From: a virus
Strand: one strand, 5' to 3'
Length of the DNA stretch: 30,375 nucleotides
IMG/VR virus record: IMGVR_UViG_3300044632_002802
Coordinates: 1-30,375 of that record
Each line of letters begins with the position of its first letter. Within the stretch, counting starts at the first letter, position 1. Below are positions 2,500 through 23,926 of this stretch, piece after piece. The notes beneath the pieces are model-generated. The model did not search any database. It had not been told where the DNA came from and was given only the letters and a program-made list of their open reading frames with translations. The position numbers were made by a program, and so were the translations under genes.

Positions 2500-3315
2500 T
2501 TATGATGTCCTGAAGGAAACTCCTGTAGAACTATTACTAGATGCAATTCTAAAAGCAACAGTTCCAGAACGAGTCGATATTGCTGATGGTGAATAAATTG
2601 GATATCCACCTATTCTGCCATTTGGAAATGTAGAAGTGTCAATTGTCACATAAAAATTTTTAGAAGCTAATAATGATGCTACTGAGCTATCTACTTGTTG
2701 AATATTATCTATTTTTGAAGAGTTAGCAGGAATATTAACAGATATAACAGGATTTGCTCTTGAACCTAAAACAGCAGGGCCCCTAATGCTAATTCTGCTC
2801 GGGATGATACCTGATTGCAATTTCCAAAATGACTTTATCTTCATAGAAGATGTAATTTCATCAAAATCAATTCTGGCAAATCCAGTTTCGTTGTTTCGCA
2901 ATCCAAGTTGAACGGAGTCTAGTAGCATCTCTAAGCGAAATATGTTATCTTGTCTTTTTTCGTATGCCTCAATAGAACTTATAATATCATTAGGATTAGT
3001 TTGTAAAGACAATGAAGAATTCCAGCCAGTTTGACCAACTGAAACTAATTCATCTTTTTCTGGATCAAAATTACTTGAATTTTTACCATAAATTCTAAAA
3101 GTATAAACACTCGTTCCTAGCCTGTCTGCGGGAATAGTAGCAGTATATGTGTTAACGGTACCCTTACTAAGATTGAAACAATAATTTGACACATTACCAA
3201 GAACAAACTCTGTGTTACCAGTTATTCTGCTAACAAACATATTTTTATGATCATGAACAAGCGCATAATATGCGCCGGGATATTGAGTCGTAAATGTAAA
3301 GACTAGATTAGCCAT
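2500..3315 (-). CDS. putative virion protein with CHRD-like domain
   Basis: This 271-aa protein starts at the ATG at 3315 (MANLVF), preceded by AAGGGTGA at good spacing; an in-frame GTG 9 bases upstream is less likely. The N-terminal 80 residues look beta-rich. Residues about 107-240 resemble the CHRD domain, a beta fold first described in chordin and also found in bacterial surface proteins. The two signature strands are visible: SRISIRGPAVLGSRANPV at about 173-190 (family pattern HIHGPA..G..GPV) and FYVTIDTSTFPNGRIGG at about 221-237 (family pattern YVNVHT..P.GEIRG). The His and Glu of the family pattern are replaced here. It overlaps the protease gene upstream by 8 bases. A receptor-binding or virion decoration role is inferred from the fold and context. 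Confidence 0.68.
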   Translation of the reverse strand: MANLVFTFTTQYPGAYYALVHDHKNMFVSRITGNTEFVLGNVSNYCFNLSKGTVNTYTATIPADRLGTSVYTFRIYGKNSSNFDPEKDELVSVGQTGWNSSLSLQTNPNDIISSIEAYEKRQDNIFRLEMLLDSVQLGLRNNETGFARIDFDEITSSMKIKSFWKLQSGIIPSRISIRGPAVLGSRANPVISVNIPANSSKIDNIQQVDSSVASLLASKNFYVTIDTSTFPNGRIGGYPIYSPSAISTRSGTVAFRIASSNSSTGVSFRTS

Positions 3316-4147
3316 AAGAATCACCCTTGAATGCAGCTTCCATTTTCTGCATAAAGTCTGCTACACTATTAATAGGAATATTCCTCATACGACAATCTCC
3401 CAGCAGATTTATGCTACAACCACAAACTATAGAAGCAGCCATACTACTGCCGGAAGCTTTCATATAAGAATCAGAAGGAAATGTAGACCAACTATTGCTG
3501 GCATTTATATCAATAAATAATTTATTTCTTTCTGATACAAATTCACATGAACCATCTTTAGATGAACTGCAACATATAACGCCATCAAAAGCTGCAGGAT
3601 AAAGTATCTTATTCCCACGAGTTACTTCTTTTCCAGAAGAAGCAATAACAATACATCCAACATCAACTGCTTTTTTAATAACTTTTTCTAAATATCTATC
3701 ATGTATAGGAGAGCCAGCGCATATTAATATAATATCAACATTATTTGCGATAGACCAAATAATCCCAGCCGTTAAATTATTTGTATCTCCATCACCAAAG
3801 TCATCCATAACCTTACAAAAATAATACCTTGCAGATGGAGCCATCCCCATTATAGTGCCAGGATTTGATCCTGCAAGAATACCAGTCACTATAGTGGCAT
3901 GACCATGCTCGTCCCATACTGTAGACTTAGATGACAACAAATCTACAAAAGATAGCTCTGAATGCCCTCCAATATTTGACATATCACTGTGAGCAGGAAC
4001 TCCAGTGTCCAAAATTGCAATTTTTACATTACCAGGATTAACATTTGGTATATGAAAGCCAAAGTTTACTGGAAGATATTTTACTGGCTCTTTAATATTT
4101 TTGACAGATTTTTTTCTATCAATTGGCTTCTTGAGTATGAGCTGCAT
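3308..4147 (-). CDS. subtilisin-family (S8) serine protease-like protein
   Basis: This 279-aa protein has the S8 catalytic triad in the expected order: Asp47 in AILDTG, His81 in DEHGHAT, and Ser235 in ASGSSMAAS. There is no signal peptide and no recognisable propeptide, only a Lys-rich 30-residue N-terminus. The segment that normally carries the oxyanion-hole Asn (AAAGN in subtilisins) reads IASSGKEV, so Lys173 stands where Asn is expected. The enzyme may therefore be weak, altered or structural. The ATG at 4147 is preceded by GGAGA at about 9 bases and lies 29 bases inside the upstream gene. It is embedded among virion genes, so it could process a virion protein or act on a host surface protein. 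Family assignment is secure; activity is uncertain. Confidence 0.88.
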   Translation of the reverse strand: MQLILKKPIDRKKSVKNIKEPVKYLPVNFGFHIPNVNPGNVKIAILDTGVPAHSDMSNIGGHSELSFVDLLSSKSTVWDEHGHATIVTGILAGSNPGTIMGMAPSARYYFCKVMDDFGDGDTNNLTAGIIWSIANNVDIILICAGSPIHDRYLEKVIKKAVDVGCIVIASSGKEVTRGNKILYPAAFDGVICCSSSKDGSCEFVSERNKLFIDINASNSWSTFPSDSYMKASGSSMAASIVCGCSINLLGDCRMRNIPINSVADFMQKMEAAFKGDSYG

Positions 4148-4833: not shown

Positions 4834-5424
4834 TTATAAGTCTATCTTTACTGCATTTCGCATTACGCGATCTTCAACATCCACATCAGAACTGTCTTCT
4901 GATGAAGAATTATCATCTGAATAATTTTCAGACATTCTCACAGACTTACTGGTTGCTTGCTTAATAGATTTACCCTTGACAGACATTTTTTGTTTCATTT
5001 TTTCTATTCGTTCTTGCTTTTCCGATTCGTTTAACATAATCAACTGTCCGCCATTTATCAAACGACTAATTTCATCGGGCATCTTACCATACGTATTCAT
5101 TATAGAATCAATTGATTTAATATCGTCAAGTCCCATGAATTGAATTTTAGGCTCTAGCCCATTTACGATAACACATTTTCCTCCAGGAGAGCCAATATAT
5201 TCTTTTTCTACCTTGCTAGAAGATACCTGTGGCTGCAAACGAGGTCCAACGACTGCGTCTTTTTGGCTTAAAGGAAACCCTGCAGTATTCTTATCATTCA
5301 AAACAATAAGACCTATACTTCTTAGCTTACTTTCAATTCTACTGAATTCATCAAAACTAATACGGTATAGTCTGTCACTTATAATGACTACTTTATCTTC
5401 ACTATGATCAAATATGGCTAGCAA
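4834..5424 (-). CDS. hypothetical protein with acidic Ser/Asp-rich tail, TTG start
   Basis: I do not recognise this 196-aa protein. The best start is a TTG at 5422-5424, with AAAGGA about 9 bases upstream; no ATG lies near, and this start overlaps the stop of the GT4 gene by 7 bases. The N-terminal 40 residues look like a small alpha/beta unit. A Pro/Gln/Ser linker follows, then a region with SPGGKCVIVNGLEP. The C-terminal 60 residues are low complexity, first Lys/Met-rich and coiled-coil-like, then Ser/Asp/Glu-rich. Such a tail is likely disordered. It is one base upstream of the GT9-like gene stop-start junction and clearly part of the same operon. Confidence 0.68.
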   Translation of the reverse strand: MLAIFDHSEDKVVIISDRLYRISFDEFSRIESKLRSIGLIVLNDKNTAGFPLSQKDAVVGPRLQPQVSSSKVEKEYIGSPGGKCVIVNGLEPKIQFMGLDDIKSIDSIMNTYGKMPDEISRLINGGQLIMLNESEKQERIEKMKQKMSVKGKSIKQATSKSVRMSENYSDDNSSSEDSSDVDVEDRVMRNAVKIDL

Positions 5425-6779
5425 CTTATACGTTCCTTTATAATGTTAAAAATACTTTTTGCTGACGCATGATTCTCTGTGAATTTTTGCAGATCTTTAT
5501 TTTTCTCGACATATTTTTTATAATTAATATACATATCTTTCATTCCATCGGCAAGACTATTTATAAAAGATTCCGATGTTAAATCTGCCATTATGTGTTC
5601 ATCCCAAAAATATGCGCCAGTAGCGTTTACTGGAACTTTAGAAAGACGGTCTATATCTAAAAGCATACTGTTTTTATTATTTAATATATCTTGCATGGCA
5701 CTGACATTAGTTCCTATTACAGGCAGTCCACACAAGCTTGCTTCAAGATAGGGCAAACCATATCCTTCGCCCCTAGAAGGCAAAACAAAAGCGTTACAAG
5801 CCCTGTATATGCTTGCTATGCTTTCTTCATTAAGCTCTTTTGTAACTCTCATAATATGAGGTGGGTTTTTTAAATTCAAATCATGTATGATTTTTTCAAC
5901 TTCATCTTTTACACCACTTGCTGGGCCAGATATTCTTTTTTTACGACACACAAGGATAAGTGTTACGTCATCCACATGACTAAATGCTTTACAATAAGCT
6001 TTTAGTAAAGCATCTGGTCCTTTTCTGTAGTTCCAATTAAAAACACTTATAAATTTAAAACTTTTTGCTTGAGCAGAGATATCAGCCTTATGACCCGATG
6101 TGTTATAAGTAAAACTGTCAACGATGCCAGGTACTACAAAAATTGGTCCACTAAAATGCTGAGATATGACACTTTTGCAAAAATTAGAAGTTGTCCATAT
6201 TTCATCGTATCTTTTAAATATATCAGCAAAATTACTAGGAATAGTATAAGATTCAACGGTTGTATATAAAATTGATTTTTTCTTCCCACGTGCAGTATCG
6301 AAAGAAGGCACAATACTGTCTATAACTACGTCACCCACAGTGCTATGAGTATAAGGAAAGCTAGATCCAACAATAAGATCATTGCCTATTAATCTGGGAT
6401 GAGAATGGTCTATGGCATTTACAGATAGACTAATTCCGTTTTTCTTCAAACATATAGCTAAATTTCTGTTTACCTTACCGTAACCACTGTAATCCAGAAA
6501 TTGTCCCCTTAATAATATTCCAGAACTATCTTTGTTTTTTTCTTTCATCACCATTTGAGATGATTGCTCGCTTTCTTTTTGAAGAGACGATTCAAGACTT
6601 GAACTTGCATCCCATTCGATTGGATAAAATGACCCAGATCTAATTAGTTTTCGGAGTGAGGCGCTTTTTAATAAATCTTGTTTAGATAATTCATAAAAAT
6701 CTACCACTTCTGTTGGAGAAAAGTTTTTATCAATATCAGAAATATAAACAGAATGACCTGTACGGTTTTGGACCTTCAT
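5418..6779 (-). CDS. GT4-family glycosyltransferase
   Basis: This 453-aa protein is a retaining GT-B glycosyltransferase of the GT4 type, which transfers a sugar from a nucleotide-sugar donor. The C-terminal domain carries the EX7E motif in SRGEGYGLPYLEAS (Glu338 and Glu346). KFISVFNWNYRKGPDALLKA at about 242-261 is the typical strand-loop opening that domain, with the donor-site Arg and Lys. The acceptor-side domain begins near residue 87 with LLRGQFLDYSGYGKVNR, including the Gly-rich loop. The first 85 residues are an extra, poorly conserved segment with a Ser-rich linker. It is the first gene of a minus-strand run divergent from the plus-strand gene at 6827. It may modify virion glycans, DNA or host surface. 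Family secure, substrate unknown. Confidence 0.9.
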   Translation of the reverse strand: MKVQNRTGHSVYISDIDKNFSPTEVVDFYELSKQDLLKSASLRKLIRSGSFYPIEWDASSSLESSLQKESEQSSQMVMKEKNKDSSGILLRGQFLDYSGYGKVNRNLAICLKKNGISLSVNAIDHSHPRLIGNDLIVGSSFPYTHSTVGDVVIDSIVPSFDTARGKKKSILYTTVESYTIPSNFADIFKRYDEIWTTSNFCKSVISQHFSGPIFVVPGIVDSFTYNTSGHKADISAQAKSFKFISVFNWNYRKGPDALLKAYCKAFSHVDDVTLILVCRKKRISGPASGVKDEVEKIIHDLNLKNPPHIMRVTKELNEESIASIYRACNAFVLPSRGEGYGLPYLEASLCGLPVIGTNVSAMQDILNNKNSMLLDIDRLSKVPVNATGAYFWDEHIMADLTSESFINSLADGMKDMYINYKKYVEKNKDLQKFTENHASAKSIFNIIKERISC

Positions 6780-7380: not shown

Positions 7381-7530
7381 GTGACTTCTGGATTAGTAGT
7401 GCATTTAGATGCAGGAAATACAGTGTCATTCTTCAATGGAAAAATTGCTTTAGCAAGGATATATGACACTGCCCTTACTTCTGCTCAAATTTTACAAAAT
7501 TACGATGCCGTAAAGTCAAGATTTTCTTAA
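7381..7530 (+). pseudogene. internally deleted LamG/concanavalin-like domain remnant
   Basis: Fifty codons from GTG to TAA read VTSGLVVHLDAGNTVSF and then directly FFNGKIALARIYDTALTSAQ followed by ILQNYDAVKSRFS. The first part matches the opening strand of phage and bacterial LamG-like domains (SGLVLHLDAGN). The second part matches the last strands and closing helix (NG.IA..RIYN.AL...EI.QNYNA.K.RF). In intact domains these two parts are separated by roughly 150-200 residues, so the core sandwich is missing. The reading frame differs from the one ending at 7375, and an in-frame TAA (7378-7380) stands directly before the GTG. Its stop shares bases with the convergent CCA-enzyme stop at 7527. 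A nonfunctional remnant is the simplest reading. Confidence 0.6.
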
Positions 7531-9095
7531 GATGTAAAGTTGCTTAATAAAAACTGTTTTGCTTCTATTTTGTCTTTTATTACACCAGAGTCTTGAGCTT
7601 CTGCAAGAGCATTCTGCATCAAATTAATAAAACCCGTTTTTGGATCTTTCCCTGGAAAAATTTCCATAATTTCTTTTCCATTCAGAAGCGGTTTTATGCC
7701 AACTTTTGCTCTTTCTTCTATAAATTGCTCTATGGTTTTTATTTTATCATGCTTTCCTTTTACTTCATCATCGTAATCTACTCCACCTTTACTCATAGAA
7801 TCAGCAATAGAGTGCATGAAAGTCAACCACCAAAGTCTAGTCTTTGAATCATCTGCAATGTTCATAGATTCAAAGTCTCTCAAAAACTTACCTATAGATT
7901 TAGGACTATGCATCTCGCCATGTGGACGCATGTGCTCCTGAACTACTTTGCCGATTAAATCTCTTTCGTTGCCAAAACCAAGTCTTTTTAAAATTTCAAC
8001 TGCTAACTCCGCAGAAACATTCTCATGTCCTGGGTAAGATGAAGCTCCTGGAGTAGATTTGCTAGGACGAACTAATGACGGATCCATCTTGCCAAAATCA
8101 TGGAATATCGCAGCCATTACAGCAACTAAACGTTCTTTGTCAGAAACGCCAGCATCAATAAGCATATTATTTAAATTTTTTACAACATGCACAGTATGCT
8201 CAAGCAAATTGTACTGATGCTTTGGATTGTTTTGATCCATATGAATTGGTTTAAATCCATAAAGTTTTGTATGGTGAAAAACAGGCAAATAAAGACCACT
8301 GGAAAAGAAATGTCTTACTGCATCAGCTGGCCTTTTTCCTAAAACTAATTTTTCTAATTCTTTTCTAGCACGCTCTGGAGCAACTTTCTCAAGATAAGAC
8401 TTGTGAACTTCTGGATGCTTTAAAGCTTCTACTAAGTTATTATCTAATTCAAAGCCGTACATTTGAGATAAAAATCTTAAAGCCCTCAAAGCTCTTAGCG
8501 GATCTTCTTTTAACGTAACAATTGGGTCTACTGGAGTTCTTAAAATTCCCGTCTCTAAATCCTTGACCCCACCAACATAGTCTTCTATTTCTTCAGTATC
8601 TATGTTGTAATAAATAGCGTTAATAGTTAAATCTCTTCTTTTGACATCTTCCTTTGGATCATCAGTAGAGGATATCTCAGGGACTCTACTAGATTGATTA
8701 TATTTCTCTGTACGCATGGGTACAAATTCAACCTTAATACCGCTTATATCTATAGCACCAACTTTAAGGCCAGCGCTTGTCTTTTTTTCTCCTGGTTGAG
8801 TTTTTTCTAAGCTAACAGCATAAGGATCTTTAGTATTCACACCACCATTTTTTTGCATGTCATATTTTCTAACAATTTCTGCAATCACATTCCCATCTCC
8901 ACCAGTCACTGCTATATCTATGTCATCAGAAATTTTTCCAAGCAATCTGTCTCTTACCCAACCACCAGCTATTCTTAATTTAAGATTGGGAAAAAACATA
9001 TCTCTTGCAGACTTGATGATACTAAATATAAAGCGTTCTTGCTCAGTTAATTGAACAGAACTAGAAATTTTATTAGCTGTCTTATACCAATTCAT
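7527..9095 (-). CDS. cca: CCA-adding tRNA nucleotidyltransferase with HD domain
   Basis: This 522-aa enzyme belongs to the class II nucleotidyltransferases that add or repair the 3' CCA end of tRNA. The catalytic head shows RIAGGWVRDRLLGKISDDID at about 41-60, with Asp58 and Asp60 as the metal ligands. RRDLTINA is at 153-160, GGVKDLETGILRTP at about 175-188, the RALRALRF helix near 201-208 and the ER..KE motif near 241-246. A C-terminal HD phosphohydrolase domain is intact: His300, His332-Asp333 in FHDFGK, His357 and His388. Some bacterial CCA enzymes have such a domain with phosphatase or phosphodiesterase activity. The ATG at 9095 (MNWYKTAN) is chosen because the longer frame to 9158 runs through a terminator hairpin. 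No Shine-Dalgarno site is seen. It probably maintains tRNAs during infection. Confidence 0.92.
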   Translation of the reverse strand: MNWYKTANKISSSVQLTEQERFIFSIIKSARDMFFPNLKLRIAGGWVRDRLLGKISDDIDIAVTGGDGNVIAEIVRKYDMQKNGGVNTKDPYAVSLEKTQPGEKKTSAGLKVGAIDISGIKVEFVPMRTEKYNQSSRVPEISSTDDPKEDVKRRDLTINAIYYNIDTEEIEDYVGGVKDLETGILRTPVDPIVTLKEDPLRALRALRFLSQMYGFELDNNLVEALKHPEVHKSYLEKVAPERARKELEKLVLGKRPADAVRHFFSSGLYLPVFHHTKLYGFKPIHMDQNNPKHQYNLLEHTVHVVKNLNNMLIDAGVSDKERLVAVMAAIFHDFGKMDPSLVRPSKSTPGASSYPGHENVSAELAVEILKRLGFGNERDLIGKVVQEHMRPHGEMHSPKSIGKFLRDFESMNIADDSKTRLWWLTFMHSIADSMSKGGVDYDDEVKGKHDKIKTIEQFIEERAKVGIKPLLNGKEIMEIFPGKDPKTGFINLMQNALAEAQDSGVIKDKIEAKQFLLSNFTS

Positions 9096-9099
9096 ACGG

Positions 9100-9105
9100 A
9101 TTATA
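9100..9105 (-). promoter_or_regulatory. possible -10 element (TATAAT) of the CCA gene
   Basis: The minus strand reads TATAAT at 9105-9100, only four bases before the CCA-enzyme ATG at 9095 and just downstream of the capsid-operon terminator. Its position would put transcription initiation at or next to the ATG, giving a leaderless message, which fits the lack of a Shine-Dalgarno site. No good -35 at 17-base spacing is visible; TTGTCT lies 13 bases upstream. The call is tentative. Confidence 0.28.
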
Positions 9106-9114
9106 TTAGTACAT

Positions 9115-9151
9115 AAAAAGACAACTGCCCTCCTTTCGGAGAGCAGTTGCC
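9115..9151 (-). terminator. rho-independent terminator after the major capsid gene
   Basis: On the minus strand GGCAACTGCTCTCC and GGAGGGCAGTTGTC form a 14-pair stem (with two G-T pairs) closed by a GAAA tetraloop, followed at once by TTTTT (9119-9115). It begins 29 bases after the major capsid stop codon. This is the strongest intrinsic terminator in the window. It separates the capsid operon from the CCA gene, and it would be read into protein if the CCA gene began at 9158. Confidence 0.93.
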
Positions 9152-9180
9152 AAAACAATTCACGTGTTACTAATTATGAA

Positions 9181-10053
9181 TTAGGATGCACGATAAACTT
9201 CAATCTTCGAGATGGCGTAATCGTTCATGACAACGATTCCGACTTCTTCGTAGATAACCCAACCGAGGCGAAGCTTCTTTGGATCGTCCGCTGGGAGGAC
9301 AGTGATGTCCTGGCGGATTGGAAAGGCTCCAACGGTGTCGGGAGAAGCACATACCAAAACGGTCTGGGCGTCGAGCTGGGAGCTGACGTGGATGTCAGCA
9401 GTCCAGAGGTGGCCATAAAGACCGGTGGTAAGGATCTCACGAGTTGTAGCCTCATCGTAGAAAGTCTTGCCAAAGACACGGAAGCGAGCATACTGAAGTG
9501 GGTGAGCAACAACCTTGCTTGCGACAAGATCGTGAGTCTCAATCAAACGGTATGCAACGTTGAGCGAGTCAGTGGTCAAGTCGCCAGTGTTGCCAACGAC
9601 CTGATCATTGCGGGTATCGGCAGCAGCAATCAGAGCGCTGAAGATGTTACGATCTTCTTCCTTCTGAATGGCTTCCTTAGCCTTGATCTGGGCACGGTCA
9701 ACAATATAGAAACGACGAGCCTTGATTTCGCTCAAACGAATTGTTGGGTGAGCAGCGATCTCAAAAGTGGGGACGAGAACTTCTTCGCCTTCCTGAATCT
9801 GATCGGGAACTGCACCCTGACGGGCAATAACAGTTGCTGTAGAGGCAACATCGCGCTCATAGCGGGGTAGAGCGCCCTGTGGGAGCTCATCCACCATGAG
9901 AAGCTTGCGGCCTACAGCCTGATACTCTAACGAACGGCGGATTGGCTCCACCATGGCCTGTGCGAGAGCAGTACGGCCTTCCTCAGTAGCGAGGGCTTGG
10001 GCAATCACTGCCTCCTTCTCATCATAGGTCAAACCATCTTTATTTAATGACAT
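9181..10053 (-). CDS. major capsid protein (HK97 fold)
   Basis: This 290-aa protein has the appearance of a compact HK97-fold capsid subunit. An N-terminal helical stretch runs to about residue 50, followed by RKLLMVDELPQGALPRY, then VPTFEIAAHPTIRLSEIKAR and the long helix RAQIKAKEAIQKEEDRNIFS (about 120-140, the spine-helix region). The A-domain-like C-terminal half contains LGWVIYEEVGIVVMN. There is no obvious delta domain, consistent with scaffolding being supplied by the neighbouring 1925-aa protein. The ATG at 10053 (MSLNKDG) follows AAAGGA at good spacing; a TTG 18 bases upstream would include that site. Composition is visibly richer in G and C than neighbouring genes, with CTG, GAG, ATC and GCC codons, as expected for a gene tuned for very high expression. 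A strong terminator follows. Confidence 0.93.
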   Translation of the reverse strand: MSLNKDGLTYDEKEAVIAQALATEEGRTALAQAMVEPIRRSLEYQAVGRKLLMVDELPQGALPRYERDVASTATVIARQGAVPDQIQEGEEVLVPTFEIAAHPTIRLSEIKARRFYIVDRAQIKAKEAIQKEEDRNIFSALIAAADTRNDQVVGNTGDLTTDSLNVAYRLIETHDLVASKVVAHPLQYARFRVFGKTFYDEATTREILTTGLYGHLWTADIHVSSQLDAQTVLVCASPDTVGAFPIRQDITVLPADDPKKLRLGWVIYEEVGIVVMNDYAISKIEVYRAS

Positions 10054-10084
10054 GTTTGTATATCCTTTCAAAGTTTTATTTTAT

Positions 10085-10721: not shown

Positions 10722-13700
10722 TCATTTAAAAGCATTACGTAACTTAGCAGCCTCGCTCTCATCTGCCATCTCGACCTGCTGTTGGAGACGGAATAGAGAA
10801 GCAATCTTACCCTTCAAGTCAGTCGAAGCATTTTTATGACTGCTTACTTCGCTGATTACGAGTGGCTGCTCAACTCCACTCGACGCAACCTTCAGACCCT
10901 TGGTAGCACTTGGGCGATTAAACATCGCCTTCTCGAGGTCACGAAGCTGAGATACATCATATCTCTGGAGCTCCGAGAGCTTTGCTGGCATTTGTTCGGC
11001 TTTAATTATGCCGTTTTCAACCATTTTAGCAGCAAGCTTGATAGCAACCTCATTGCTGGCACTACTGGCCTTCTTAGATTTATAGTTTTTTGCACCGCCC
11101 TGACCATCTTGGCCGCCGGTGATTTGATTTTGTTTTTCGCCCTCAAGACCTAGTTCGGACTCGTGACCAAGTTGACCGTCACCTGCTGGAATGCTGGGAA
11201 CATCAACCTTGAAGCCTTCGCCCTTTTCAGCAGAAAGCGGCTGACCACCATTTTCTGGAACATCTGGAGTGTCGGCAGAGAAGCCCTCCTGAGTACTGTC
11301 CTTGTGAGGCTTACCATTCGATACTTGACCGATGTCTGGATCATCCTGCACTGTGTGCACAGAAAGGCCCATATCTTTAGCCAACTTAGCAAGAGCTTGA
11401 TCGAACATATTTGACGCCTTACGGTACTTGCCTGTATGGTCTTTTCCTTGACCTTGCTGGCCGCCTGTCACTGCATTCTGCATTTCACCCTTGTTTGGCT
11501 CACCTTCAAAATGTCCATCACCATATGGAATTTCTGGAGCATCGGCCTTAAAGCCTTCACCATGCTCGCCAGACAATGGCTTGCCGCCGTTGGTGGGAAC
11601 GTCAGGGGAATCGGCAGAGAAGCCTTCCTGAGCACTATCCTTGTGAGGCTTGCCGTTAGCAACTTGACCCACGTTGTCCTGTGCACTAGTCTGCTCTAAC
11701 TTGCCATTTTTAGCCTGCTTATTTAGAGCAGAACGTATTGAGTCAACATCTATATTTAGTTTGTTGACGCCTACGATACGGCCATGGCGCAATGCATTGG
11801 CCTCTTTCTCAAGTAGATTTAACTGATCATTTGTAGATGCGCTCTTAGGAGCTTCTTTCATAATATCTGCTTCTTCAATTGCAGATGGCTCCTCAAAAGA
11901 TTCTTCCATATCAGTCTCCTCCTCGGTTTCTGGTTCAGTGAGCTCTGTTTCTTCAGAGGAAGGCTCCATGCCTTCTTCTGACTCTGGCATTTCAATCTCT
12001 ACGTCGAGATCTTCGCCACCCTCCATGTCGGACATATCATCGCCCAATTCAATATTTAAATCAAAGCCTTCATCTTCATCAGTCTCATCACGATAACCTG
12101 ATGGCATTTCCTCTTCACTTGGCTCATCCATGTCCATATCCTCATCAATTTCTTCGTTGAGATCAGAATCATCGTAACCCTTTGGATTCTCAGACATGTC
12201 ATCACTGTCTTCACCCATATCCATATCTTCATCAGAATCAAATGGATCTTCTTCCATATCCTCTTCTCCGATTGCAATCTTTATTGATTGATCTTCAGAA
12301 AGAGATTCTGCATAAACTTCTTCAGGAGATATGTACTTGGATTTTAAGTCTTCGCAAGCCTGAGCAGCCTTATTGAGAGCAAGGCCATTTCTAATGAAGT
12401 CTTCTACGCATTCATGCATGCCGTCTCTTTCAGACCAAGTAGAAGCAATCTTATTAGCTAGCTTGGTTGTGTAGACATTCTCGTCAGAAAGTGATCCGCA
12501 GACACATTCTGCAAGATTCTTACCTTCACATGGACCACTAAGTGCAAGTGCATTTTCACCATATCTATTAGCAAGCTTCTCTATGCATCTTGCCATGGGG
12601 AATTCTCCGTGCACTGTAAATGCTTGCTTAAAGAAACCCTTTATGTCATCAGAAGAGGCTTCCTTAATTGTGCCCAAAAGTCCCTTGTCATTAATCTTAT
12701 TTAGCGCAGATGCCTTATCTTGCATAGACATGCCGTCAAAGCTGTCTTCAGAAATGCCAACTGAAGCAAGAGCTTTGATTATGGCATTTTTCTTACGCTG
12801 GCAAGGAGTGCAAGAAGCCTGCTTTGCAACTGGAGCCCACTCCCACTGAGCATAAACATGCTTTGGATCATTAGTCTTAGCAGCAACTCTAACTCTATAA
12901 ATTTGACCACTATCCAAACACTGCCAGTGCTCTTGATCAAGCTTAATGGTATTACGCTCACCACTGATTGGGCTAATGCTTCCAAAATCTCCCTTAGATG
13001 CAAACTTTTTCATAGTATCTGCACTAATTCTTGTAGAAGCAGCAACGGCCATGCCTCCCATGCCTGGGATACCGCCTGGAGCTGGAGCACCCATACCCAT
13101 GTCTGGAGCAGGGGATGCTGCACCTTCTCCACCTAAGCCCTTCTCTGGAGACTCTGGTTCAGCAGTTACATCTTCTTGATCAACATCACCATCGGTAATC
13201 TTGTCGAGTAGAGATGCATCTGGAACAATCTTGATTGTATAATTTAATCCACATCCAGGACCATTGCACTTGGATTTTCCTCCAAGAACGTCTACGTCCT
13301 GACCCCCACACACAACACACACTGCGCCTGGTGGCTTGGGCTTACTTTCTTCCATTTCTCCACCGCCCATATCTCCGCCTGCGAGAGGATCTGCACCCAT
13401 TGGAGCAGCACCTGCATCAGCTGGAGCTCCAACAGTGAGTGCTTCAACTCCGGGAGCGCCAGCTGGTGGAGCTCCACCTGGAAGCTGCATTCCCATGCCC
13501 ATTCCTGCTGGATTTAAACCAGCGGGCATTTGACCGCCAGCAAGCTGAGCCTGCTTTTCAAGCTTCTCAAGATCAGATAGTAAAGAAGCTCTCTTTGTCT
13601 GAACTGACTCTTCGTTTAAATCAGAAGTTACAACATTTGACTCGACTGAAGATGCCCATTTCTCAAACGCAGCTCTTTCTTGATCAGTTACCTTGGAAGC

Positions 13701-16499
13701 CATTTTGCAAGTGGCTTCAACAAGACCATTTTCTTCGTCAACGTCAACTGCAACGGGAATGATTTCGACATTCTGTCCGAGATTCTCATTCACCATATTT
13801 TGAGCAAACTTATGAACAGCTGCAATAAAATCTTTACCAGATGAAACTTCCATGCCGAGGTCATCCTCTGCACTCATGCAGACTTTGATCATTCCGTCCT
13901 CTGGCAATGACATTTCGCTAAATGCTTTACGGAACATATTTGAATCATCTTCATTCTCAGATGTTGCGCTTTCAAATCTTTCTACAGCGAGATCTTCTGC
14001 CTGCTGCATTGCCAGCTTGTTGTTGGATACGAAAGAGAGAGCTGCAAGAACATCTTCTGCAGAAGATGCACCCAGGTTGTCTCCAACAGCAGCCAAAACT
14101 GCATCTACTGGCTCAACGCCATAAACTTCTGAAGCAACTTTAGAGAAATTTGCAAGACGAGTGTTGTTTGACTTACGAGCGCTCACAGCCCATGGAGCTG
14201 CATTCATAGCAACAACCACCTTTGCCTTGTTGTGTCGTGAAGAATCGGAATTAATAAAGCTTACGCTGTTTTGTATGTCTTCAGATCCAACGCCATAAAA
14301 TGCCATCGCATCAGCAATGGCTGCCTGAGCTTGCTTTATGAGATCTTGAGCAGAGGCTTTCTTTGTGGACTTTCCAGCAAGCTGACCTTCTGTCGTGACA
14401 GTTGGCTCAGACCAACTGAATGTTTTTTGCAGCATTTCTAATTGTCCCTGCTGGGCAACTGATGTCCAATCAGAAGGAATGTTTGCGAACACTTCTCTAC
14501 TGATGTCATTCCATTGAGCTTCTGTAATCACTTCAGGGAAAGAACCCCAACGAGCCATGTATCCGCCAGTCTTAGAGTTAAGGGTGGCTTCAACAACTGT
14601 CTCATATGCAGTTCCCTGACGAGGAGTAGCTGAAGTTCCTCCAACATCACTGTAGGACTTGCCAGCACCAAGCTGCTCTTTGCTTTCGGTGGTAGCAGTG
14701 TGAGCTTCTCCCTTGCGGGCATGAATGCCCTTCATGTCAGAGAGTTGAGATTCGGTAGTAACCTCTCTCATTTCGCCTGTGCGTGACTGTGCAACTTTGT
14801 TTTGATTTGAGCTTTCCATGGATGTAATTGACTCCTCTGAAGTTTTGTTCAAGTATGAATTTAAAATTTGACGAGCGGCGTGCTTTGGATCATGATTGAT
14901 AATTTGCTGTGTTTCTGCATCGAAAGAATCTATGCTAGACCATTTAACTAAACGGTCTCCCTTTAAATAAGCAATGTGCACTTCTCCATCATTGTCTGAA
15001 GAAATAACTATTGTGTCATCGCCTTGTGTAAATTTGTATCCTGAATTTTCTGACATAAATTCTCCGTTGGTGTACATAAGACTAGATAAATTATTTAGCC
15101 TATTTGTTATACTATTAGATATTTTAATAAAATCCTTTATAGAATCTGCTTTAACTGGAATAAAATTTGGTTTAGTTACTCTGCCAATCTCATCTCCAAA
15201 TTCTTGTATTTGAGGAGAAGCAGAAGTAGGCATAGACTTAATCATTGCAGGAGCTTGCTGTTGCGGCATAGCCATGCTTGGCTGCATAGAAGGGACAGCA
15301 GCCTGCGAAGGCTGAGGCATTGCAGAAACTGGCATTTGCGTAGCGGATTGGGGCCTAGAAATAGGACTTGCTGGGGCATTTGTGCCATAAGCAATTTGAG
15401 ATTCCGTAGGACTGGGCAAAACTGCGTAGCCCATTTCAACTAATTCATCTGAGATTTTCTGGATATCAGAGCAAACTTTAACAATATCAGATACATACTC
15501 TAAGCTTACCTTGCTCTTTTGAGCCATCATAGAGCGCGCAACACGCTCAAGCTGGTTCATCGCATCATTTAATTCATTGATTTCTTGCTTACCTGCAGCT
15601 TTATGCAAGCTGCATTGTCCAGAAGCACATTCCATGCCAAATGAAGAGTCTTGGTCCATGGAAGTTCCAATCTTAGCAAGAGTGTCACGAAGGTCTGCCA
15701 CCTTCTTAAGTAAGCCAGTGGGGTTTATAATATCACTTACTAAGCAGTCATGACATGCTGGGTTGACAACAAAACTGTCTTCTATAAATTTAACACCATA
15801 GTTATGCTCAAATATCTGTTGACTGGCAAACTTGTTGTGTTTCTTTTCTCCCTTTTTGCATCCACACACTGGACATGGCTCTTCACCCGCATTGGCACTT
15901 TTGTGATATTCACATTCATGATCTCCAGTATAATTTTTCTTTTTTCTTTCTCTAATATGAGAGCAATATTCTTTTGCATTTGCAGCGCGTGTATGACATA
16001 CAGAGCAGCAAGAATACTTTACACTACAGCCCATACTGCTTCCAGTGACGTAACCAGCTTCTATGCCTCTAGCAAGTCTTGGATACGCAACTTTGTCAAC
16101 CATATTAATAGTATATATTCCACCACGAGTATCATCCCACCATGCATGAACAACTTTACCTCTAGCCTTTTCAACGTCATCGTTTTGGTGATTAACAAAT
16201 ACAGGAACTCCAATAAAAGTTTTGGCTGCTTTTTTTAATTCATTTTCACTAAAATAATCTCCATTGTCATTTACTTCATCTTTCTTAATTGCAAAAACTT
16301 TTACAAAAAGATGATCTGGATTTTCTTTGACAGCTGAAACTATATCAAATCCGCCAAGGTCTATATTCTTTATATGGTCATCAAATGTTTTTTCTTTTGA
16401 TGCAAATTTTTGAATAGGAGAAAGATTAATTTCATCCCAATTTTGCGGTAAATTTAATGGCTCTATTTGTCTTTCAGATGTAATTGTGAATTTATCCAT
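10722..16499 (-). CDS. 1925-aa prohead protease fused to scaffold-like region
   Basis: The N-terminal 260 residues resemble caudoviral capsid-maturation serine proteases: NDNGDYFSENELKKA, then VFVNHQNDD with His104, then GYVTGSSMGCSV with Ser154/155. The His-Ser spacing of about 50 is as in HK97-type proteases. Right after the Ser comes a Cys-rich insert (CCSVC, CPVCGC) that may bind zinc. Beyond residue 270 the chain looks like a scaffold: a Pro/Gln/Met linker (about 375-430), helical Ala/Lys-rich blocks, a Gly/Pro/Met linker (about 985-1057), a zinc ribbon (Cys1061, 1064, 1078, 1083), another Gly/Pro/Met stretch, a very acidic region (about 1410-1550), and two copies of a 113-residue repeat (from about 1608). 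Many K-x-A-[S/Q] motifs are scattered throughout. AAAGGC precedes the ATG. It lies between portal and capsid, as protease/scaffold genes do. Confidence 0.85.
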   Translation of the reverse strand: MDKFTITSERQIEPLNLPQNWDEINLSPIQKFASKEKTFDDHIKNIDLGGFDIVSAVKENPDHLFVKVFAIKKDEVNDNGDYFSENELKKAAKTFIGVPVFVNHQNDDVEKARGKVVHAWWDDTRGGIYTINMVDKVAYPRLARGIEAGYVTGSSMGCSVKYSCCSVCHTRAANAKEYCSHIRERKKKNYTGDHECEYHKSANAGEEPCPVCGCKKGEKKHNKFASQQIFEHNYGVKFIEDSFVVNPACHDCLVSDIINPTGLLKKVADLRDTLAKIGTSMDQDSSFGMECASGQCSLHKAAGKQEINELNDAMNQLERVARSMMAQKSKVSLEYVSDIVKVCSDIQKISDELVEMGYAVLPSPTESQIAYGTNAPASPISRPQSATQMPVSAMPQPSQAAVPSMQPSMAMPQQQAPAMIKSMPTSASPQIQEFGDEIGRVTKPNFIPVKADSIKDFIKISNSITNRLNNLSSLMYTNGEFMSENSGYKFTQGDDTIVISSDNDGEVHIAYLKGDRLVKWSSIDSFDAETQQIINHDPKHAARQILNSYLNKTSEESITSMESSNQNKVAQSRTGEMREVTTESQLSDMKGIHARKGEAHTATTESKEQLGAGKSYSDVGGTSATPRQGTAYETVVEATLNSKTGGYMARWGSFPEVITEAQWNDISREVFANIPSDWTSVAQQGQLEMLQKTFSWSEPTVTTEGQLAGKSTKKASAQDLIKQAQAAIADAMAFYGVGSEDIQNSVSFINSDSSRHNKAKVVVAMNAAPWAVSARKSNNTRLANFSKVASEVYGVEPVDAVLAAVGDNLGASSAEDVLAALSFVSNNKLAMQQAEDLAVERFESATSENEDDSNMFRKAFSEMSLPEDGMIKVCMSAEDDLGMEVSSGKDFIAAVHKFAQNMVNENLGQNVEIIPVAVDVDEENGLVEATCKMASKVTDQERAAFEKWASSVESNVVTSDLNEESVQTKRASLLSDLEKLEKQAQLAGGQMPAGLNPAGMGMGMQLPGGAPPAGAPGVEALTVGAPADAGAAPMGADPLAGGDMGGGEMEESKPKPPGAVCVVCGGQDVDVLGGKSKCNGPGCGLNYTIKIVPDASLLDKITDGDVDQEDVTAEPESPEKGLGGEGAASPAPDMGMGAPAPGGIPGMGGMAVAASTRISADTMKKFASKGDFGSISPISGERNTIKLDQEHWQCLDSGQIYRVRVAAKTNDPKHVYAQWEWAPVAKQASCTPCQRKKNAIIKALASVGISEDSFDGMSMQDKASALNKINDKGLLGTIKEASSDDIKGFFKQAFTVHGEFPMARCIEKLANRYGENALALSGPCEGKNLAECVCGSLSDENVYTTKLANKIASTWSERDGMHECVEDFIRNGLALNKAAQACEDLKSKYISPEEVYAESLSEDQSIKIAIGEEDMEEDPFDSDEDMDMGEDSDDMSENPKGYDDSDLNEEIDEDMDMDEPSEEEMPSGYRDETDEDEGFDLNIELGDDMSDMEGGEDLDVEIEMPESEEGMEPSSEETELTEPETEEETDMEESFEEPSAIEEADIMKEAPKSASTNDQLNLLEKEANALRHGRIVGVNKLNIDVDSIRSALNKQAKNGKLEQTSAQDNVGQVANGKPHKDSAQEGFSADSPDVPTNGGKPLSGEHGEGFKADAPEIPYGDGHFEGEPNKGEMQNAVTGGQQGQGKDHTGKYRKASNMFDQALAKLAKDMGLSVHTVQDDPDIGQVSNGKPHKDSTQEGFSADTPDVPENGGQPLSAEKGEGFKVDVPSIPAGDGQLGHESELGLEGEKQNQITGGQDGQGGAKNYKSKKASSASNEVAIKLAAKMVENGIIKAEQMPAKLSELQRYDVSQLRDLEKAMFNRPSATKGLKVASSGVEQPLVISEVSSHKNASTDLKGKIASLFRLQQQVEMADESEAAKLRNAFK
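11055..11680 (-). repeat. two-copy 339-bp (113-residue) repeat inside the scaffold gene
   Basis: The protein reads VGQVANGKPHKDSAQEGFSA in copy one and IGQVSNGKPHKDSTQEGFSA in copy two, offset by 339 bases. The match continues through DSPDVP/DTPDVP, NGGKPLS/NGGQPLS, GEGFKADAP/GEGFKVDVP and NAVTGGQQGQG/NQITGGQDGQG, each ending near a KAS motif. The copies differ at many third positions, so the duplication is old and selected at the protein level. The repeat is rich in Gly, Asp and Pro and probably flexible. Function unknown. Confidence 0.9.
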
Positions 16500-16979: not shown

Positions 16980-19244
16980 TTATGAATTGTCACTGTTATC
17001 ATAAATCAAATTTTGATAAGTGATTTTTAGTTCATCCCCATCTTCGTAATAAATACTTTCATCATCATTTACACTAGCTTTTTTAGCCATCAATGCTTTT
17101 CTTTGAGCTATTGTATCTTTAATATTATTTATTATAATTTGCGTTACAAGTTCAACATTTGTGTTTAAAGCACTTTCTTTGATTCTTACAACACGCCAGC
17201 CCATATTTGCAAGCTTCATGTCTCTTTGCTTGTCTCGCTCTACAGCATCTACGTCAGAATGCCAAAAATCTCCGTCTGCTTCAAAATTAATCATAATATC
17301 AGGGAATGCAAAATCTAAAAGATACGCATTCTTTTCTCCTGGAACTTGAAACTCATATTGAGCAAAAAGTCTTAGTGGAATATTCAAAGACTTGATAATA
17401 CTAAACAACTTCTGCTCAGGCTTGGTCAAAAATATTTGTTTTGACTCTGGAGCTTGCTCTTCAACTTTTTTCTGTTTTGGTTCCTTACCACGCTTATATA
17501 CGCGCATGCCAGCATCAACTCCTGATTGCATGCCATCCATAGCTGGATAAAATTGAGCAACCTTGGTCATATCGTCTGAACTAGCAGCAGCTCCCATTGG
17601 CGGAGTTGGAGGAGCGCCACCCACTGGAGGTCCTGGCGGAGGAGCGCCAGGTCCTGGGCCAGCTAAGCCTGGCGGCATGCCGCCGCCGCCCATGCCAAGA
17701 TCTAAACCACCACCAGGAGGTCCGCCAAGGCCTAAATCAAGACCGCCCATTCCGCCACCTGAATCTGGACTACCACCAATCACCTGACCACCCTTACCAG
17801 CAGTAATCTGCTCTTCACGAAGTCTATTGATCTCTTGATCATAATCAATATTATATTCAGTAAGAAGCTTTTGAGAAGATATCAACCCCTTGTCATGAAG
17901 CTGCATTAGTCCTTGCAAATACTGACTATTATCACGCAACCTTAAATCATTCCATTTCATCTTTGGATAAAGCCATACAGTCTCACCAACTAATTTGCTT
18001 TTTTGAGTATCAACAAAACCTTGCATTTGCGCAACTGGTAAAAAGATATTTTTTTCAACCCAAGATGAAAGCTCCATACGCCAAGTTTCTAATCTTCTGA
18101 TCAAAGTCTCAACGCCAACTGCAGCAGCGCTATATGCTGCCATTTCTCCGTTAAGAAGAGTTTGAGGCAACATAAGACCGTCCAGCATTTCTTTTCCAAT
18201 CATTTCAAGCTGATTAGAAATATCGTGTATTTTACCAGTTGCTCCTATAAAATCCATTTCAAATGCATGGTGAGTCACAATAGTAAGATTAGGATCGTTT
18301 GCAACAGCAGCGAGTTGTCCTTGCACATCTGCAATATCAAATTCAGAAGCTGGTCTTTCTGCATTGCCAACTTTAACAACTCTTACAGGAAGGATATGAC
18401 GCTCTGCCATAATCCAGTTGGCAGTCATTAACTTTGTCTTATATGAAATGATTGTAAACAGTCTTCGCAATAAACTTTCTCCATAAGTTCCATATGGAGA
18501 ACCCTTGTGTCGTATATGACTAATGCATCTTGGACTCAGCGGAATAGGTCTACCAGACAATACATACTCTTTAATAGAATCTGGAATTCTGTCATAAACA
18601 TTTTTGGGCTTCTTCTGAGCAACAACCCTTTTAAGATCATCGTCTGGAATTAAAGCAACAGTGGGCTCATCTGCAAGCTGAGTATTTTGAACTTCTATAA
18701 AATCAGGATTTAAAATTAGTAAACGCTTTATGGTCCCATCGGGGTGATTGCAGATATTACCATTTGGAAGATGACCCATGCCACGACATACTGGACATTC
18801 TATTTCTGTAAAAACAAATACATCACCCAACAAAAAATATTCATGACTTATTTTTCTAAGCCAATACTCTAGATTTAGTTTTTCCGACATGTGCTCAAAA
18901 TATGCAAGAACCTTTTTGTCCTTACACTCAAGTGCAAAGCCATTCATTGGGAATCCTGCATAAAAATCTATGCCAGCAGCAGCTTTTGGTTCGTTTTCGT
19001 AATAAAATCTAGCCCATTGATAAACTTCTTTTCTTTTACTTGCAATCTGCCAATTTTGTGGTGTATGCAAAGGGCTAAAAAACATTGGCTGTGTAAATAT
19101 TGTCCCGGCATTGCCTCCAACGTATTGAGCAGCTTTTGTTAAAGGTAAAGATACAGCTGAAGAATTTGCGTATTTGCGAACATCAAAGTTAGAATTATGT
19201 TCTGCGTTACCTGTTTCTTGTTCTTTATTGATTGACTTTGCCAT
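16980..19244 (-). CDS. portal protein with C-terminal Vsr/DUF559-like nuclease domain
   Basis: Residues about 1-485 form the portal: an N-terminal region with QWARFYYENEPKAAAGIDFY, a Cys-containing insert CPVCRGMG..CNH near 170-190, the ISHIRHKGSPYGTYGESLLR segment, and a clip/stem-like helical section with MAAYSAAAVGVETLIRRLE. A Gly/Pro/Met-rich flexible linker follows (about 486-558). Residues about 605-712 then match a DUF559/Vsr-type PD-(D/E)XK nuclease: TKPEQKLFSIIKS, QYEFQVPG, YLLDFAFP (Asp644), INFEADGDFWHSD (Glu655, Asp657, His662) and ERDKQRDMKLANMGWRVVRI. The key acidic residues are present, so the domain may be active. The total of 754 aa is long for a portal because of this fusion. 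The gene starts five bases after the stop of the zinc-ribbon frame upstream. Confidence 0.9.
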   Translation of the reverse strand: MAKSINKEQETGNAEHNSNFDVRKYANSSAVSLPLTKAAQYVGGNAGTIFTQPMFFSPLHTPQNWQIASKRKEVYQWARFYYENEPKAAAGIDFYAGFPMNGFALECKDKKVLAYFEHMSEKLNLEYWLRKISHEYFLLGDVFVFTEIECPVCRGMGHLPNGNICNHPDGTIKRLLILNPDFIEVQNTQLADEPTVALIPDDDLKRVVAQKKPKNVYDRIPDSIKEYVLSGRPIPLSPRCISHIRHKGSPYGTYGESLLRRLFTIISYKTKLMTANWIMAERHILPVRVVKVGNAERPASEFDIADVQGQLAAVANDPNLTIVTHHAFEMDFIGATGKIHDISNQLEMIGKEMLDGLMLPQTLLNGEMAAYSAAAVGVETLIRRLETWRMELSSWVEKNIFLPVAQMQGFVDTQKSKLVGETVWLYPKMKWNDLRLRDNSQYLQGLMQLHDKGLISSQKLLTEYNIDYDQEINRLREEQITAGKGGQVIGGSPDSGGGMGGLDLGLGGPPGGGLDLGMGGGGMPPGLAGPGPGAPPPGPPVGGAPPTPPMGAAASSDDMTKVAQFYPAMDGMQSGVDAGMRVYKRGKEPKQKKVEEQAPESKQIFLTKPEQKLFSIIKSLNIPLRLFAQYEFQVPGEKNAYLLDFAFPDIMINFEADGDFWHSDVDAVERDKQRDMKLANMGWRVVRIKESALNTNVELVTQIIINNIKDTIAQRKALMAKKASVNDDESIYYEDGDELKITYQNLIYDNSDNS

Positions 19245-21707: not shown

Positions 21708-22430
21708 TTAATTCTGTACAGAAAGTAGAGCTTCAATAAACTCCTTTGGCCAAACATTGTCCCAATACTTACGGAAATGAGACTTTTGCTTATCGGTGAG
21801 GTTAGCTATCTTGACAAACTTTGGTTGCTCAGAAGCCATTTTGTCAGACCAACAAGATTCTTTTGCAGACCAGCAAGATTCTTTTTCGTCCTTGCCACTC
21901 TTGCCACTCTTGCCACTCTTGCCTTCATCTGAATCATCAATAACAACCTCTTCTCCATCTTCATGAGAAGTTGCTGCGTGAGCAAATCCAGCTTCATGAG
22001 AAGTTGCTAGTGTCAAAATAACTTCATCATCATTAACCTTTTCAATACTTGCTATTTTTAGGCCATCATCTTTGGCTTCAGCCTTCTTCTTGTCTAAGAT
22101 AGCTTGCTGAAGAGCAGCTGGCAATTTCTTTTGAGCAGAAGTTAAGCCTGACTTACCAGAAGCACCTGACTTACCAGAAGCACCTGACTTACCAGAAGCA
22201 CCTGACTTACCAGAAGCACCTGACTTACCCTTAAAGTGCTCCAGCACTTCCTTGGGCATCTTACCGCCCTTAGTCGTCTTTTCCATCATAGCTTCCTTGC
22301 CAGCTTCCTTGACGGGAGCTTCAGCAGAAGATGCGACCTTAGTCATTCCGTTACCCTTGACACCATCAATAAGGTCTTGGAATGATTTTTGAGATCCGTT
22401 TACGTAAATTTTGTTAGAAAAAAATTGCAT
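21708..22430 (-). CDS. hypothetical protein with Gly-X-Y repeats
   Basis: This 240-aa protein has about ten Gly-X-Y triplets (alternating GKS and GAS) near residues 70-100, encoded by an 18-bp tandem repeat, and a second short GKS run near 170-180. There is no proline in the triplets, so a stable collagen helix is doubtful. Other features are a duplicated ESCWSxK phrase near 185-200, a TSHE duplication near 145-160, and K-x-A-S motifs (TKVASSAE, LKIASIE). The C-terminus, RKYWDNVWPKEFIEALLSV, is the most globular part. GGAGG at 22440-22444 precedes the ATG, a strong site, and a T4-late-like promoter lies further upstream, so this gene may be abundantly expressed late. Function unknown. Confidence 0.78.
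   Translation of the reverse strand: MQFFSNKIYVNGSQKSFQDLIDGVKGNGMTKVASSAEAPVKEAGKEAMMEKTTKGGKMPKEVLEHFKGKSGASGKSGASGKSGASGKSGASGKSGLTSAQKKLPAALQQAILDKKKAEAKDDGLKIASIEKVNDDEVILTLATSHEAGFAHAATSHEDGEEVVIDDSDEGKSGKSGKSGKDEKESCWSAKESCWSDKMASEQPKFVKIANLTDKQKSHFRKYWDNVWPKEFIEALLSVQN
22147..22230 (-). repeat. 18-bp tandem repeat, four perfect copies plus a partial
   Basis: The plus-strand unit CCTGACTTACCAGAAGCA is repeated four times from 22147 to 22218 and then partly. On the coding strand it encodes the alternating GKS GAS triplets. Perfect identity suggests recent slippage-driven expansion, so copy number may vary between related phages. Confidence 0.95.
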
Positions 22431-23092: not shown

Positions 23093-23926
23093 CTATCTCC
23101 GTGTTAATAATATTGATTTAGGCATAAACTTCCTTCCAGGAAATCCATACGAAACAATATTCATAATTATATATTGGCTTGGATGATCTGCTGTTTCGTC
23201 ATATGCTTTTAAAACCTGACGCTTACTACTCCTGGAAAAGAAAACACGATGAGGTTCTATATCTTTAGTAACAGTGTGTCCTTTTTGCGTATGATAAGTC
23301 ACTCTCATAACTTGATTATTAGAAATAGACCATCTTAATGCCTCAAAAATATTGCCAAATTTTGGGATATTAATTACGTCCTGTTTTGCTGGGGCTGACA
23401 CAGGAGTCACAACAACATTAGGAATAGGCTTAGCTGGAGATGGAACTTTTATTTCCTTTTTTGTCTCTTCCGGTTTTTTTTCATCTTTATCTAAATCTTC
23501 AGTTTTATCTTCAACGTCCTGAGCTTCTTCTTTTTGAGCAGTTTTTATATTCTTAATAAGCACAACGGAATTGTCAAATTTTTTGAATAAAGGCTCACAA
23601 TAATCTCCAACAGAAAAACCGTTTGACTTGAACCATCCGTCTTCCATCTCTAAAGCATATTTGCATGGACATGAAGACTTTACACTTGTCAAATCATGCT
23701 CTTTAATTCTTTTAATGTCTTGAATTTTTCCAGATTCATCTATAAATGCGATGTCTAAAGGAATAAAAGTATTCATTCCCCAAAAACTTAAAGGTTTTGA
23801 ATTTTGAAAAACAAACAGCATGCCACTATCTTTATCTAAAGATTTCCTAAACATTAACCCTTGACTTTGCTGTTCCGGGGTCTTTGCAACTTCTACATAG
23901 ATTTTTTTTGAGTTACTCAATTTCAT
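23093..23926 (-). CDS. DUF192 domain protein with WYL-like C-terminal domain
   Basis: Residues about 8-112 match DUF192: EVAKTPEQQSQGLMFRKSL, GMLFVF, then FWGMNTFIPLDIAFID and the closing ALEMEDGW...FSVGDYCEPLF. DUF192 proteins are small beta proteins of unclear function, often secreted in bacteria, but no signal peptide is present here. An acidic/Lys/Pro linker (about 130-180) leads to a second domain, about 187-277. There, VMRVTYHTQKGHTVTKDIEP, FFSRSSKRQVLKAYD and QYIIMNIVSYG resemble the WYL fold, an SH3-like sensor or ligand-binding module often found in regulators. The WYL resemblance is less certain than DUF192. The ATG at 23926 lies 14 bases inside the upstream small gene. Confidence 0.8.
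   Translation of the reverse strand: MKLSNSKKIYVEVAKTPEQQSQGLMFRKSLDKDSGMLFVFQNSKPLSFWGMNTFIPLDIAFIDESGKIQDIKRIKEHDLTSVKSSCPCKYALEMEDGWFKSNGFSVGDYCEPLFKKFDNSVVLIKNIKTAQKEEAQDVEDKTEDLDKDEKKPEETKKEIKVPSPAKPIPNVVVTPVSAPAKQDVINIPKFGNIFEALRWSISNNQVMRVTYHTQKGHTVTKDIEPHRVFFSRSSKRQVLKAYDETADHPSQYIIMNIVSYGFPGRKFMPKSILLTRR

Follow-up and report, generated by a model that had tools for sequence, protein, structure and literature searches.

At the oxyanion site, sedolisins naturally carry a residue other than asparagine. In eukaryotic subtilases the oxyanion asparagine is near-constant and PC2 has an aspartate at this site, according to passages of one publication (PMC4182778). The same passages describe human PC1/3 N309K, a disease mutation of a secreted convertase in which asparagine is replaced by lysine at the oxyanion position and the triad is otherwise intact; removal of the propeptide is slowed but complete, and the protein is secreted but has no activity on added substrate. 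The subtilase fold can also serve in a non-catalytic job, as in the C. difficile pseudoproteases CspA and CspC, two of whose triad residues are mutated according to part of a further publication (PMC6636752). The phage protein described here resembles PC1/3 N309K in its residues, but its lysine is the natural state and is kept in a relative, and unlike CspA and CspC it keeps the triad.

The window, a 30,375-nucleotide stretch of DNA that makes up IMG/VR virus record IMGVR_UViG_3300044632_002802, is part of the genome of a huge phage with kinship to Bacillus phage G. One ORF is the sole Peptidase_S8 match in this record (PF00082, 78.3 bits against a curated cut-off of 21.8), and its only PHROGs match is phrog_3677 "protease" (E 1.6e-32). 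The gene and the sites discussed below are located as follows.

3308..4147, minus strand: S8 (subtilase-fold) gene, 279 aa, from ORF, Pfam, subtilisin alignment, and model
4094..4147, minus strand: N-terminal extension, residues 1-18, in the place of the intracellular-subtilisin propeptide, from fold alignment ranges
4007..4009, minus strand: codon of Asp47 (subtilisin Asp32), from alignment
3899..3901, minus strand: codon of His83 (subtilisin His64), from alignment
3629..3631, minus strand: codon AAA of Lys173, at the site of subtilisin Asn155 (oxyanion hole), from alignment and codon list
3443..3445, minus strand: codon of Ser235 (subtilisin Ser221), from alignment

Asp47, His83, and Ser235, which correspond to subtilisin Asp32, His64, and Ser221, occur in the expected order and in DTG, GHxT, and GSSM contexts, as in Peptidase S8. 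An earlier note on this DNA had proposed Asp47, His81, and Ser235 as catalytic residues. Subtilisin alignment bears out the aspartate and the serine, but the histidine was misassigned: it is His83 (within DEHGHAT), a position that holds His in 37/37 canonical viral S8 rows, while the column of position 81 holds Asn in 23/37. The same note had reported that the oxyanion asparagine is replaced by Lys173, and this observation holds with the triad present, in that the phmmer alignment pairs the GK of ASSGKEV with the GN of subtilisin and sets Lys173 on Asn155. Another asparagine might have filled the oxyanion position, but none is there by sequence alignment. Asn179 is six residues past Lys173 and beside a loop of low model confidence, so that, judging by the model, rescue of the oxyanion hole by Asn179 is unlikely. 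The window protein differs from an active subtilisin-type endopeptidase in the oxyanion asparagine, which is itself not universal given the aspartate of PC2, and differs from Csp-like subtilase pseudoproteases in its intact triad. Its cleft is altered too, with Cys at the Ser125 position and Ser at the Pro225 position, as is the case in many family members.

Structure prediction, which had been suggested as a check, gave a subtilisin fold with a pLDDT of 92.2 from a 47-row alignment that included 37 canonical S8 rows; residues 175-177 are below pLDDT 50. Subtilisins and intracellular-subtilisin precursors match the model at Z about 29-31. The match to 7xr8_C has VIA Z 31.2 and rmsd 2.5 over 255 residues, and that to 2wv7_F, the precursor of a B. 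clausii intracellular subtilisin, has Z 30.1. In these fold alignments, mature subtilisins start at model residue 19-20 and intracellular-subtilisin precursors at 1-2, so about 18 N-terminal residues of the window protein sit where the intracellular-subtilisin propeptide sits. The earlier description of a protein with neither signal peptide nor propeptide is accurate in that the N-terminus is charged (read by eye) and there is no subtilisin-type prodomain, but it overlooks these ~18 residues. The label "virion-region" in the same note applies to the gene, which is located ~5 kb downstream of the capsid gene. Intracellular subtilisins (2wv7, 6f9m) have in common with the window protein the absence of a signal peptide by eye, a short N-terminal extension, and the fold. 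They differ in that the window protein lacks the oxyanion asparagine and also the LIPY/F motif, which part of PMC6220982 describes in the intracellular-subtilisin N-terminal propeptide and which is absent, as read by eye, from the window N-terminus MQLILKKPIDRKK.

The top match to the window protein among phage records is the S8 protein of Bacillus phage BSP14 (33.6% identity). Unlike the window protein it has Asn at the oxyanion site, and unlike the window BSP14 has no annotated glycosyltransferase gene near its S8 gene. In the open-licence literature, searched by title and start of abstract, we found no paper on phage subtilase pseudoenzymes; a paper on Paenibacillus larvae phages (PMC4168068) contains the term "subtilisin-like" once. 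The word "subtilisin" as a whole word is absent from a jumbo-phage survey (PMC7824862).

Relatives were gathered by means of a 336-aa gene (21 loci) and the capsid protein (best 80 of 113), and their contigs are as long as 548 kb. When the relatives' ORFs and 18 whole records were searched with profiles, 28 distinct S8 members emerged, the window included; L024, whose protein is identical to that of L023, and L178, a near copy of L177, were dropped. Of the members, 11 were scanned with Peptidase_S8 and every one gave a match (E up to 0.1), including L012 and L032, which have no triad. The genes around the S8 gene of the window, and the head protein that places the phage, are these.

2500..3324, minus strand: gene directly downstream of S8, with a relative at the same place in the related contig L002
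4119..4832, minus strand: p240, a companion gene that overlaps the S8 start and accompanies standalone S8 across the tested loci and records
4834..5424, minus strand: p200, a conserved neighbour gene, from locus comparison
5418..6779, minus strand: GT4-type glycosyltransferase, upstream of p200, from Pfam, PHROGs, and locus comparison
9181..10071, minus strand: major head protein, 53% identical to Bacillus phage G gp27

The genes p200, p240, and S8 lie side by side in this order in 21/21 members with a long enough locus. The GT4 gene precedes them in 18 of the 21, with none in the fetched stretch of L025, L027, and L142. In 10 of the 21, including the window, the 336-aa gene comes after S8 in the same locus. 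p240 and S8 are found together in 28/28 loci that hold either (107 loci scanned, several being the same phage twice). Ten of the 18 whole records have a standalone S8 gene with adjoining p240, one of these pairs being frame-broken; seven have neither, and in one the sole S8 protein is 743 aa long. A second, longer S8 protein (571 and 945 aa) is encoded in two of the ten. No standalone S8 gene of the window's family without p240 was found in the loci and records tested. p240 matched no recognised Pfam family when 10 members, and then 7 relatives among 10 proteins, were scanned. The idea that p240 is a glycosyltransferase of family 9 was not adopted, as Pfam gave no such match and a PDB profile search returned a GT9 chain only at E 0.69. 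The product of 2500..3324 has a CHRD-domain match below the Pfam cut-off (E 0.0029), as does its L002 relative (E 0.022).

Several other genes of the window, all on the minus strand, were noted. The portal protein (754 aa, 16980-19244; phrog_16240, E 3.8e-43) has at its C-terminus (residues about 607-708) a match to a DUF559 / MTES_1575-type endonuclease, which could represent either fusion of a nuclease to the portal protein or invasion by a nuclease gene. A 1925-aa protein (10722-16499) is encoded between the portal and capsid genes, and a DUF192 domain (23093-23926; E 2.4e-29) with a weak C-terminal WYL match is encoded between the portal and terminase genes. The gene at 21708-22430 has a collagen-like match below threshold (E 6e-5) and contains a tandem repeat of 18 nt; in L026 and L037, genes with many GxSG repeats are found upstream of the 336-aa gene. 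A tRNA nucleotidyltransferase (polyA-polymerase head and HD domain) is encoded at 7527-9158, and L002 has an ORF resembling such an enzyme, by eye, near its glycosyltransferase gene. L201, a contig of 1.36 Mb from a MAG titled Armatimonadetes, encodes a capsid protein 57% identical to that of the window; the 20.8 kb retrieved from it lack the S8 cassette, and p240 had no match in the genome. This locus is possibly a prophage or a misbinned phage, and a possible hint at the host.

The 28 collected S8 members fall into three states. Triad and oxyanion Asn are both present in 10 (L139, L140, L158, L174, L176, L177, L186, L195, L204, and L210, the gene of the last being split by a frameshift), the triad is kept and Asn replaced by K, D, E, Q, or S in 13, and the entire triad is lost in five (L012, L032, L142, L205, and L209). 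None of the 27 members readable whole has a partial triad. The aligned site is Lys in the window and L002, Glu in L207, Gln in L170 and L208, and Ser in L010 (Lys if a one-residue gap is allowed), L011, and L130. It is Asp in L025, L027, L206, L022, and L023, which recalls the natural non-Asn residues of PC2 and sedolisins; the phage family differs from these in having Lys, Glu, Gln, and Ser beside Asp. Because an Asn occurs one residue past the aligned position in L010 (AAGKSN) and L011 (SRFSNK), and two residues before it in L130 (AANAS), 10 of the 13 Asn-less assignments are clear-cut and three are alignment-dependent. The aligned column holds Asn in three of the five triad-less members, in a stretch that is badly aligned, so these members lend no support to a strict order in which Asn is lost first and the triad later.

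In contrast, the other S8 proteins sampled do not vary at this site. Asn is present in 80/80 other viral loci (best 80 of 168, representing 38 clusters at 75% identity), which were retrieved with three canonical phage S8 proteins as queries (those of BSP14, L008, and Moorella phage MTATph1) and with search patterns in the HPDL and GHxTH regions, away from the oxyanion site. Asn is likewise present in 39/39 bacterial aligned segments covering the site; these derive from the 39 best-scoring S8 loci from the phylum of one MAG (titled Armatimonadetes), 38 of which gave alignments. Variability of the site therefore marks the window's phage family among the S8 proteins sampled. The fold of the window protein is ordinary, and what is unusual is that the oxyanion residue differs throughout an entire lineage among members whose triads are intact. 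This family seems to include everything from enzymes to non-enzymes.

Conservation of the lysine in homologues had been named as a point to check, and the residue is kept in the one close relative found: L002, a 94-kb phage contig, has an S8 copy 72% identical to that of the window, in which the SSGKEVTRGN stretch is unchanged. Scans that used the S8 protein of the window or of L010 singly matched only L002 and L010 itself, and a close-pattern search of bacterial genomes for S8 relatives gave none. Between window and L002, the S8 gene is under strong purifying selection (dN 0.20, dS about 2 and near saturation, dN/dS about 0.1), and we regard it as a live gene. The neighbouring products p200, p240, and p275 are 53-57% identical, the GT4 protein 65%, the 336-aa protein 76%, and the capsid protein 97%. 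The Lys173 codon is AAA in both phages, and since a single change at its third position would turn it into an Asn codon while synonymous sites are near-saturated, Lys173 is probably kept by selection.

The reading we favour, and to which we give close to an even chance, is that the product of the window gene, a standalone subtilase-fold protein of cytoplasmic type, carries out limited cleavage, in cis or of a partner, and works with p240. It probably acts together with the p240 protein, a partnership suggested by gene co-occurrence. The Ser-His-Asp triad, seemingly under selection, probably still attacks a peptide bond, and with Lys173 in place of Asn in the oxyanion hole the protein would be expected to be a poor general protease. 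The behaviour of PC1/3 N309K suggests a tethered or partner-presented cut without general proteolysis. The likely job would be a limited cut, made once or slowly, of its own N-terminal extension, of p240, or of a phage protein held by the pair. The fold may have a second role in binding p240 as a complex; because the five triad-less relatives keep the gene pair, such binding alone would suffice for the phage, even without chemistry.

Nearly as simple is the reading that the window protein is a catalytically dead pseudoprotease, solely a binding or structural subunit with its triad left over, although we consider it somewhat unlikely. It is consistent with the five relatives that have no triad and still hold gene and companion, with the divergence of the oxyanion site and several cleft positions, and with the loss of trans activity that the same Asn-to-Lys change caused in PC1/3, as passages of PMC4182778 describe. 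Moreover, when capsid identity is equal, the S8 proteins of two Asn-less members resemble each other less than those of two Asn-keeping members: at 80-90% capsid identity the mean S8 identities are 27.9% (19 Asn-less pairs) and 40.7% (20 Asn-keeping pairs), the pairs being non-independent, which points to some relaxed constraint. The retention of individual residues, however, argues against a left-over triad. In an alignment of 37 canonical rows with 9 Asn-keeping, 13 Asn-less, and 5 triad-less members (L114 was left out of the baseline rows of the canonical alignments, this comparison, and the tree; omission of the frameshifted L210 leaves 27 of the 28 members in the retention table and last tree), Asp47, His83, and Ser235 are kept in 13/13 Asn-less members, seven of which share as little as 22-32% identity with the window protein. 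Gly233 and Pro184 are likewise retained in all 13, and all five positions are kept in 0/5 triad-less members, whereas Gly49, Asp79, and Gly101 are kept in every member, including the triad-less (5/5). This pattern suggests that the triad is kept for function and not for fold. It looks as if the triad is selected where present and lost as a set elsewhere, with no one- or two-residue intermediate among the 27 readable members. Other cleft positions are less constant in Asn-less members (Ser125 7/13, Leu126 4/13, Gly127 10/13, Gly154 7/13, Met222 2/13, and Pro225 1/13), but Asn-keeping members have also diverged at Met222 (kept in 0/9) and Leu126 (1/9), so this divergence is partly a trait of the entire family.

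A tree built without active-site columns places the 27 members on one side of a branch from the canonical rows (100/100). On this tree the Asn/non-Asn state changes at least 5 times and the letters at least 9 times, and well supported branches force 3 Asn/non-Asn changes for the Asn-less group. Triad loss is one change on the best tree, but this is borne out by only 54% of bootstrap trees. Owing to long branches the deep order is uncertain, and the change counts are blind to gain versus loss. The earlier note had suggested a pseudoenzyme or the use of another residue. As judged from sequence, the five triad-less relatives are very probably non-catalytic pseudoproteases, but since the triad is kept in 13/13 Asn-less members and lost at all three positions in five, a plain pseudoenzyme is not the best reading of the window protein, which more probably retains restricted catalysis, in cis or on one partner.

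A fully active protease, whose oxyanion would be stabilised by the ammonium group of Lys173, by a backbone NH, or by Asn179, appears improbable. Purifying selection on triad and lysine would fit this explanation, as would the low model confidence of the loop beside Asn179, and the oxyanion site can tolerate change, since conversion of the natural Asp of PC2 to Asn made no measurable difference according to the same passages (PMC4182778). Those passages also report, in contrast, that PC1/3 N309K is inert in trans and that kex2 has markedly lower activity when its Asn is changed to Asp, and in the phage family 10 of the 13 Asn-less members have no Asn within two residues of the site, and cleft positions are altered. 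That the protein is the prohead (capsid maturation) protease of the phage, as might be supposed from a gene ~5 kb downstream of the capsid gene, is very improbable, given that a head-maturation-protease match (phrog_18299, E 1.7e-12) sits instead in residues 62-194 of the 1925-aa protein, that 32/50 capsid loci of at least 17 kb have no S8 in the fetched stretch, that S8 matches of the window's family are absent from 7/18 whole records (possibly fragments), and that five relatives are triad-less.

Restricted catalysis in the window protein can be extended to the family in a proposal that we put forward tentatively. The oxyanion residue would be free to vary (N, K, D, E, Q, or S) while the triad is selected, and the proteins would be single-turnover enzymes, restricted to cleavage in cis or of a partner and with p240 as an obligate companion, that form a stepping stone to the pseudoenzymes of sister phages. 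One phage lineage thus holds the natural Asn, several replacements with intact triads, and total triad loss, beside the same companion gene. These are natural test proteins for triad chemistry without a classical oxyanion hole, and with such a series beside one companion gene the effect of losing catalytic parts is directly testable.
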